Shown here piece by piece: positions 4,075 to 27,043 of a stretch of 35,825 nt of DNA. The DNA comes from Sneathiellales bacterium. GTDB lineage: Bacteria > Pseudomonadota > Alphaproteobacteria > Minwuiales > Minwuiaceae. The notes under the pieces were generated by a model. That model saw nothing but the letters and a program-made list of their open reading frames with translations, had not been told where the DNA came from and did not search any database. The number at the start of each line of letters is the position of its first letter. The first letter of the stretch is position 1. Both the position numbers and the translations under genes were made by a program. The stretch lies in assembly GCA_026992315.1 (NCBI GenBank), contig JALXAG010000253.1, forward strand, positions 1 through 35,825. Direction: 5' to 3'.

Positions 4075-4760
4075 TGGGTCAGAAAGTCAATCCGATCGGC
4101 CTGCGCGTCGGTATCAACCGCACCTGGGATTCCCGCTGGTATGCCGACGGGCAGGAATACGGTTCGCTGCTGCATGAGGATATCGCGATCCGCGATTATC
4201 TCGAAAGCAAGCTGGCCAATGCCGGTATTTCCAAGGTGGTGATCGAGCGTCCGGCCAAGAAGGCGCGGGTGACGATCCACACCGCCCGTCCCGGCGTTGT
4301 CATCGGCAAGAAGGGCGCGGATATCGAAAAGCTGCGCGCCAAGGTCGCGACGATGACCAATTCGGATGTTCACATCAATATCGTCGAGATCCGCAAGCCC
4401 GAGATCGACGCCCGCCTGGTGGCCGAGAACATCGCCCAGCAGCTTGAGCGCCGTGTAGCCTTCCGCCGTGCCATGAAGCGGGCCGTTCAGTCGGCCATGC
4501 GTCTGGGCGCCGAAGGCATCCGCATCAATTGCGGCGGCCGTCTGGGCGGTGCCGAGATCGCGCGCACCGAATGGTACCGCGAGGGTCGGGTGCCGTTGCA
4601 TACGCTTCGTGCCGATATCGATTACGCCACGGCCACGGCACATACCGCCTACGGCACCTGTGGCATCAAGGTTTGGATCTACAAGGGCGACATCATGGCC
4701 CACGATCCCATGGCGCAGGAGAAGCGTCTGAGCGAACAACAGGTCCAGAAACGGTCCTGA
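4074..4760 (+). CDS. rpsC: 30S ribosomal protein S3
   Basis: A 228-residue S3 ([22 protein letters not shown]). The KH RNA-binding domain with its GxxG loop ([15 protein letters not shown]) lies at about residues 75-95, and the C-terminal domain with [21 protein letters not shown] at about 155-175. S3 forms part of the mRNA entry channel. The one-base TAATG overlap with rplV suggests coupling. Confidence 0.98.
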
Positions 4761-9369: not shown

Positions 9370-9852
9370 ATGCGTTTGAACGAACTCCGCGATAATGACG
9401 GCGCGGTCAGGGAACGGACCCGCGTCGGCCGCGGCATCGGTTCCGGCAAGGGCAAGACCGGCGGGCGGGGCCAGAAGGGCCAGAAATCCCGCTCCGGTGT
9501 TGCCATCAAGGGGTTCGAGGGCGGTCAGATGCCCTTGCACCGCCGTCTGCCGAAGCGCGGCTTCAACAATATTTTCCGCAAGCACTACAATGCGGTGAAT
9601 ATCGGCCGTCTGCAGGCAGCGATCGATGCCGGTAAGCTCGATACCAAGGAAACGATCACGCTGGATGTCCTGCGCAATGCCGGCGTCATCACCCGTCCGC
9701 GCGATGGCGTGCGCCTGCTGGCCAAGGGCGAGCTCTCCGCCAAGCTGACCATCGAGGTCGACGGGGCCTCGAAGGCGGCCGTCGCCGCGGTCGAAAAGGC
9801 CGGTGGCAAGGTGATCGTCAAGGAAGTCAAGGAAGAGGCCGCCGCCGAATAA
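9370..9852 (+). CDS. rplO: 50S ribosomal protein L15
   Basis: A 160-residue L15 ([26 protein letters not shown]). The glycine/lysine-rich N-terminal extension that threads into 23S rRNA ([20 protein letters not shown]) is typical, as is [18 protein letters not shown]. The C terminus is slightly longer than in E. coli (144 aa), ending in an acidic Glu/Ala run. It precedes secY by 50 bp. Confidence 0.97.
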
Positions 9853-25816: not shown

Positions 25817-26431
25817 TCAAGAATTCCGACGCCGGCGGGCGAGACCAAGACCCAGCAGGCCGAGGCCGATCAGGCCCAGAGAGGCCGGTTCCGGGACATT
25901 CTGCGGACCGCCGGTAGTCAGGTTGACGCGGACGACGAAGTCGTTGAAATCCTGATCGGGACCAGTCAAGGGCAGGTCTTCCCAGAACAGCAGGAATTCC
26001 AGCGGGTCGGCCTTGTTGCGGAAGGTCAGCAGGTGGTCCAGACCATCGCTGTTCAGGCTCTTCTTGCTGTACCAGGTGTCACCCACATAACCCGGCGTGT
26101 CCAGATAGAAGGTGAACGGATCGAAGCTCGGTACGAAGACCTGGGCACCGATGCTGTCCTTATTCAGGATAAAGGTCTTGTTGTTGCCGGCGGCGTCAGC
26201 AAAACCCATGGAGTTGTTGTAAGCGGCGAGCTTCACTTCAAAGGTTGCGGAACCCGCGCCGCTCCACAGGCTGTCATTACCGCCGATGAAGGTCCAGTCG
26301 GCTGTCGTCTCGCCAACCAGGCCCAGCAGGCCGCTGGCCGTCCAGGCCGCCTTGGCCTTGTCGGCCGAAGCAAAGGAAACCGCAAGGGCCCCGATGCTGG
26401 CGATCGTTGCGATCATCAAACGTTTGAACAT
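25817..26431 (-). CDS. PEP-CTERM sorting-domain protein with DUF4114-like domain
   Basis: 204 residues. The start at 26431 (MFKRLMIATIASIGAL) is chosen for GGAGG at 26441-26445; an upstream GTG/ATG extension would add non-conserved residues. A signal peptide ends near ADKAKA-A. The middle resembles DUF4114: hydrophobic LEFLLFWEDLP followed by acidic DQDFNDFVVRV (about residues 143-168). The tail is a textbook PEP-CTERM signal: PEP at 180-182, a hydrophobic LGLIGLGLLGLGLA helix and RRRR. Exosortase cuts such tails and the protein is usually exported and linked to exopolysaccharide. No exosortase is in the window. The gene is monocistronic with its own sigma-54 promoter and terminator. Confidence 0.93.
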   Translation of the reverse strand: MFKRLMIATIASIGALAVSFASADKAKAAWTASGLLGLVGETTADWTFIGGNDSLWSGAGSATFEVKLAAYNNSMGFADAAGNNKTFILNKDSIGAQVFVPSFDPFTFYLDTPGYVGDTWYSKKSLNSDGLDHLLTFRNKADPLEFLLFWEDLPLTGPDQDFNDFVVRVNLTTGGPQNVPEPASLGLIGLGLLGLGLARRRRNS

Positions 26432-26452
26432 GGCATTCGCCTCCCGATCAGT

Positions 26453-26468
26453 GTTTCCCGAAGGAAAC
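26453..26468 (-). other. UUCG-tetraloop hairpin in the PEP-CTERM leader
   Basis: On the minus strand GTTTCC, loop TTCG, GGAAAC: a 6-bp stem closed by the very stable C(UUCG)G tetraloop, directly 5' of the Shine-Dalgarno GGAGG. It could stabilise the mRNA or keep the ribosome binding site exposed. Confidence 0.55.
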
Positions 26469-26588
26469 GGTAAATGAATAAACATCTGTGCGGCTACAAC
26501 AGGTATCCCATCTCTTCAGTCTGCCTGCTGAGAAAACCGGCCCAGACCGAAATCTTTTAAGTGCTAAACCGCATCTGCCCTTATATAT

Positions 26589-26603
26589 GCAATGACCGTG
26601 CCA
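26589..26603 (-). promoter_or_regulatory. Sigma-54 (-24/-12) promoter of the PEP-CTERM gene
   Basis: The minus strand reads TGGCACGGTCATTGCA, which matches the sigma-54 consensus TGGCACG-N4-TTGC; GG and GC are separated by the required 10 nt. It is preceded by a T-run. Transcription would start near 26577, giving a leader of about 145 nt. RpoN control of PEP-CTERM genes through the PrsK/PrsR pair is known in other proteobacteria. Confidence 0.85.
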
Positions 26604-26800: not shown

Positions 26801-27043
26801 GTGTCCTCTGCCGTCGAAAATGTCGAAATCGAGATCTCCGTCGTTATCGGGGCGGCCACCATGCCGATCAATCAATTGCTGAAAATGGGCCGCGGCGCCG
26901 TGATCGAACTGGCGGCAACGGTCGAGGATCATGCCTGGATCTATGCCAATGACCGCCTGATCGCCCGGGGGGAGGTCGTGGTCACCGGCGATAATGTCGG
27001 CGTGTCGATCACCCGGACCTATAGCATAGGTGAAGAGGAATAA
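26801..27043 (+). CDS. FliN/SpoA-domain protein, stand-alone
   Basis: An 80-residue protein made almost entirely of one SpoA (FliN/MotC/SctQ C-terminal) domain: VEIEISVVIGAATMPINQLLKMGRGAVIEL followed by IYANDRLIARGEVVVTGDNVGVSITRTY. In FliN this domain builds the flagellar switch C-ring. The GTG start at 26801 has TGGAG 7 bp upstream; no in-frame ATG exists before the domain. E. coli FliN is 137 aa, so the N-terminal part is missing or minimal. No flagellar or secretion gene is nearby, so it may be a displaced fliN or a FliN-like paralogue. Confidence 0.85.
   Translation: MSSAVENVEIEISVVIGAATMPINQLLKMGRGAVIELAATVEDHAWIYANDRLIARGEVVVTGDNVGVSITRTYSIGEEE

Follow-up and report, generated by a model that had tools for sequence, protein, structure and literature searches.

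What controls a small gene for a PEP-CTERM protein on the minus strand of the window (the whole 35,825-nt stretch of DNA analysed), and does the gene stand alone or belong to a larger regulated set? The first-pass annotation of this locus had described a monocistronic RpoN unit, consisting of a near-perfect sigma-54 promoter, a leader, a strong ribosome binding site, a PEP-CTERM/DUF4114 gene and its own terminator, and had viewed it as an extension of a known regulon into alphaproteobacteria. Each of these elements was recovered in our analysis, together with a second promoter element further upstream, and we consider it very probable that the gene is a single-gene member of a PrsR/sigma-54 PEP-CTERM regulon, with the activation, sorting and probable matrix role that membership would entail.

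The window gene and its two-part promoter

The features of the unit, in the direction of transcription, are as follows.

26670-26654, minus strand: PEP-CTERM box (motif 1 of Haft et al. 2006), predicted PrsR site; TGTCGAAATCCTTTACA, an exact match to TGTCGRNNWYYTTTACA
26603-26588, minus strand: sigma-54 -24/-12 promoter; TGGCACGGTCATTGCA, no mismatch to TGGCACRN4TTGCW
26432..26577, minus strand: predicted 5' leader of ~146 nt, start inferred from the -24/-12 geometry
26440..26445, minus strand: ribosome binding site GGGAGG, with the ATG 8 nt further on
25817..26431, minus strand: CDS of a 204-aa DUF4114/PEP-CTERM protein with an N-terminal signal peptide (MFKRLMIATIASIGALAVSFASADKAKA...)
25919..26080, minus strand: DUF4114 region, which includes the acidic GPDQDFNDFVV stretch
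25826..25897, minus strand: PEP-CTERM sorting signal NVPEPASLGLIGLGLLGLGLARRRR, by sequence an exosortase A substrate signal
25787-25750, minus strand: rho-independent terminator hairpin and U run (-23.9 kcal/mol, z = -6.5)

Within TGGCACGGTCATTGCA the GG and GC are exactly 10 nt apart (TGGCAC-N5-TTGC[AT]), and no other stretch of the window matches TGGCACGNNNNTTGCA exactly; when up to two mismatches were allowed, five matches were found versus 4.3 expected, the remaining four each carrying two mismatches. Across the 3.15-Mb genome (284 contigs), TGGCACRN4TTGCW occurs nine times versus once for the same pattern written backwards. Proteobacterial PEP-CTERM genes have two common upstream motifs, a 17-nt motif 1 ending in TTTACA and a motif 2 that is the -24/-12 sigma-54 site, separated by a spacer of 62.8 +/- 10.6 nt (range 32-92) (Haft et al. 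2006, PMC1569441). The 17-nt TGTCGAAATCCTTTACA ends 50 nt upstream of the -24 element; the interval of the first-pass annotation begins at the -24 element, leaving this box outside and unnoticed. Its consensus, TGTCGRNNWYYTTTACA, which emerged when the genome's other promoters were compared, has nine exact matches genome-wide, and 12 when one mismatch is allowed, versus one for the reversed control.

The -24/-12 geometry predicts a transcript start at approximately 26577, 12 nt past the C of the -12 element, and the overall fold of the resulting leader is not significant (z = -1.5). Since GGGAGG stands before the ATG at 26431, this start codon is preferred and an alternative ATG at 26485 is less likely. 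The encoded protein exceeds the cut-offs of both Pfam families, PEP-CTERM (PF07589, 32.4 bits, curated cut-off 20.7) and DUF4114 (PF13448, 33.3 bits, gathering cut-off 27, profile positions 30-84 of 85), as well as that of TIGR02595 (26.5 bits, cut-off 16). The sequence features of an exosortase A substrate are found in it: the PEP motif, the hydrophobic stretch, the basic tail and the signal peptide, the last recognised by eye. The DUF4114 region is a possible Ca2+/sugar-binding domain.

The layout is monocistronic, with a divergent FliN-type gene beginning 370 nt upstream and the next downstream ORF beginning past the terminator. The terminator hairpin was not listed by a simple terminator scan, probably owing to the stem and loop shape limits of that scan. 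The divergent gene (26801-27043, plus strand) encodes a stand-alone, 80-aa FliN C-terminal domain protein that scores 76.5 bits with PF01052 and 74.2 bits with the NCBIfam FliN model, under its cut-off of 84.05.

Relatives of the DUF4114 protein were found neither in a search of the genome collection nor in a protein search across the order, so the window promoter has no orthologue footprint and was compared instead across the other PEP-CTERM genes of the genome. Another class member encodes a PEP-CTERM protein that also has a box and sigma-54 site upstream (L100). This protein was considered as an orthologue and rejected; the alignment is weak (32% over 176 aa) and covers mostly the tail and the D-rich stretch.

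PEP-CTERM promoters and system genes in the genome

Eleven PEP-CTERM matches in the genome exceed the cut-off, and a twelfth gene, on contig C199, was missed by the family search and found only through its box and sigma-54 site; the tail of its product, NVPEPVSALLFGAGLLGLGGLFRRRRKS, scores 18.0 bits against the cut-off of 20.7. Of these 12 genes, two are cut by contig ends and another stands second in a tandem pair, which leaves nine that have their own readable 5' region. Each of the nine is preceded by a sigma-54 site that carries no more than one mismatch, so that the -24/-12 scan of PEP-CTERM genes proposed for this locus gave a positive result. In eight of the nine the box lies upstream of the sigma-54 site, with spacers of 50, 62, 62, 62, 63, 63, 64 and 74 nt; the background rate of such sigma-54 sites is ~0.0008 per 71-nt window. 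These cluster at 62-64 nt, near the published mean, and the 50-nt spacer of the window gene, the shortest of the eight, is inside the published range. In front of the ninth gene, on C204, the sigma-54 site is perfect and the box lies inverted ~206 nt upstream (L054; G000:C204:10876-10892), hinting that the box may act at a distance and in either orientation. Neither element was found at a sub-threshold PEP-CTERM match on C72 (17.1 bits).

On these sequence grounds the PEP-CTERM promoters constitute a predicted regulon and not a coincidence. The recurrence of the promoter in otherwise unlike sequences indicates selection rather than chance, and a chance origin of the window sigma-54 site is rejected because the same two-part promoter stands before the other PEP-CTERM genes of the genome.

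All of the genes of the system are present; the search of the genome for exosortase, prsK/prsR and rpoN returned each of them over curated cut-offs. PrsK (676 bits, cut-off 300), PrsR (672, cut-off 502.6) and PrsT (710, cut-off 312) are encoded in tandem on contig C115 (L042 10097-16377), and RpoN is encoded as well (TIGR02395, 424 bits, cut-off 277). Exosortase A (XrtA), on C84, scores 276.5 bits with TIGR03109 (cut-off 208) and carries a fused EpsI domain; its gene is flanked by those for an XrtA-type amidotransferase and glycosyltransferase, a chain-length determinant and a TIGR03016 outer-membrane protein, all over their cut-offs. Besides PrsR, the genome encodes eight NtrC-like regulators with long matches, all under the PrsR cut-off.

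Sigma-54 sites that lack the box precede a flagellin gene and pspA (L047 10711-10726 and 8566-8581, minus strand). Flagellin and pspA are textbook sigma-54 targets and so provide an internal check that this genome uses sigma-54. A perfect PrsR box elsewhere (L072 minus 4606-4622; G000:C283:9605-9621) is paired with a weak sigma-54 site (two mismatches, spacer 73) and precedes a gene for a 68-aa membrane protein without a Pfam match, a candidate target outside the PEP-CTERM family.

Distribution in the class and competing readings

Of 385 genomes sampled from the class, 31 encode a PrsR over the cut-off. Among 62 class genomes tested for paired box and sigma-54 sites, 18 have such pairs and none has a hit with the reversed-pattern control; 17 of these 18 genomes have PrsR (17 of the 31 PrsR carriers). 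The eighteenth, G001, belongs to the same family; with 9 of 83 candidates unscored, none from it matched PrsR at E <= 1e-130, which counts against control by PrsR. The loci of 30 pairs were read, and approximately 20 of these pairs precede a gene having a P-x-P sorting tail, a count from which one false positive was taken out and to which two genes were added by eye. G001 (L218-L232) has 15 pairs, at least 11 of them before PEP-CTERM genes. Another of its pairs (L218, box at 9606, reverse strand) precedes a gene for a 61-aa protein judged by eye to be Flp-pilin-like, which suggests that the regulon may include pili.

In a tree of PrsR proteins, the PrsR of this genome falls in a clade with 100/99 support that contains class members and Novosphingobium capsulatum, a named alphaproteobacterium, as well as one long-branched gammaproteobacterial sequence. 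This grouping agrees with the assignment of the host to the alphaproteobacteria, and gives no support to the idea that PrsR was recently acquired by horizontal transfer from a donor outside the class.

Studies of relatives suggest how the window gene would be controlled. PrsK, on a cue, would phosphorylate PrsR, and the phosphorylated PrsR would bind the TGTCG-N6-TTTACA box and activate sigma-54 polymerase at the -24/-12 site. The signal peptide would export the DUF4114 protein, and exosortase A would recognise its PEP-CTERM tail. After its release to the cell surface or into the matrix, the protein would probably help to keep exopolysaccharide (EPS) on cells. That the DUF4114 protein holds EPS to cells is plausible, and from betaproteobacterial genetics in Zoogloea and Aquincola (PMC9850573, PMC9012009) we infer a part in biofilm or floc secretion.

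The last of these steps is the only one disputed by a reading that we regard as somewhat unlikely but worth keeping in mind, namely that regulation is as proposed and the DUF4114 protein neither belongs to the matrix nor binds EPS, acting for example as a surface enzyme or in envelope stress. DUF4114 has no established function, the structure model predicted from the window protein sequence alone has a mean pLDDT of 37, and a search for a solved relative found none. A matrix role is nevertheless favored by three lines of evidence: the DUF4114 domain of Myxococcus xanthus PilY1.1 has been proposed to bind Ca2+ and EPS (PMC9109919); the exosortase gene of the system adjoins EPS genes; and prsK or prsR mutants of Zoogloea are reported to produce EPS but to shed it in soluble form, flocs being restored by overexpressed PepA (PMC9012009).

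A different activator is far harder to reconcile with the data. The presence of the eight further NtrC-like regulators and of boxless sigma-54 sites, as at flagellin and pspA, would allow the window site to work with another enhancer-binding protein of the NtrC type in place of PrsR. We consider this quite improbable, since the TGTCG-N6-TTTACA box of the PEP-CTERM promoters is missing from these other sigma-54 promoters, and the paired box and sigma-54 site goes with PrsR across the class. Least credible of all is that the sigma-54 match is decorative and that a sigma-70 promoter in the AT-rich region is the main source of expression, for although two weak sigma-70-like sites lie upstream (9 of 12 matches each, versus 0.8 sites expected by chance), it is the two-part sigma-54 promoter that recurs before other PEP-CTERM genes in otherwise unlike sequences.

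With control by PrsR and sigma-54 as the preferred reading, a bolder version of it would make the DUF4114 protein a Ca2+-dependent, EPS-binding matrix lectin under PrsR and would extend the PrsR regulon beyond exosortase substrates (to the C283 gene and, in G001, to the Flp-pilin-like gene and another non-PEP-CTERM gene). We hold this combination to be doubtful; if true, PrsR would be a more general switch of the surface matrix.

Comparison with known PrsR and DUF4114 systems

The biology of this locus is largely known, and the control scheme dates to 2006, alphaproteobacteria included. The two-part promoter and PrsK, PrsR and PrsT were already described by Haft et al. (PMC1569441), who list EpsH, PrsK, PrsR and PrsT for the alphaproteobacterium Rhodospirillum rubrum (their Table 1 and Figure 6) and place motif 1 before its one PEP-CTERM gene. 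The proposal that the regulon is newly extended to alphaproteobacteria thus does not hold, as the number of PrsR carriers in the class also indicates. The other half of that proposal, control of an exosortase substrate by RpoN and PrsK/PrsR, is supported in silico by the system genes and the common promoter, and it is the novelty that falls away. The PEP-CTERM regulon found here leaves the known picture unchanged; its value lies in the genome-wide in silico confirmation that the PrsR/sigma-54 PEP-CTERM promoter marks a coherent regulon in another lineage, and in the finding that the paired box and -24/-12 site is specific enough to reveal exosortase substrates that family models miss.

The PEP-CTERM/EpsH system of Haft et al. 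and the one described here have in common the 17-nt box ending in TTTACA, a spacer of ~63 nt in most genes, the -24/-12 site, a single-gene unit after a long intergenic region, the PrsK-PrsR-PrsT tandem, an exosortase with an EpsI domain and EPS genes. The window gene differs from that set in its genome, in its 50-nt spacer and in the DUF4114 region in the body of its product. It resembles pepA of Aquincola tertiaricarbonis RN12 and Zoogloea resiniphila in having a TGGCAC -24 element, an upstream enhancer and its own terminator (PMC9850573, PMC9012009). Primer extension placed the start of the Aquincola PEP-CTERM gene at a TGGCAC -24/-12 site, and its transcription depends on RpoN1 (PMC9850573). 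RpoN dependence and PrsK/PrsR control, described for pepA (PMC9850573, PMC9012009), are predicted from sequence for the window gene. The window protein is not itself the floc protein PepA, scoring 27.7 bits with NF033554 (floc_PepA) against a cut-off of 80. With Myxococcus xanthus PilY1.1 it shares the same Pfam domain and an acidic, possibly Ca2+-binding stretch, the contact with EPS being proposed for PilY1.1; in PilY1.1, however, DUF4114 belongs to a type IV pilus protein, whereas here it is carried by a small predicted exosortase substrate.
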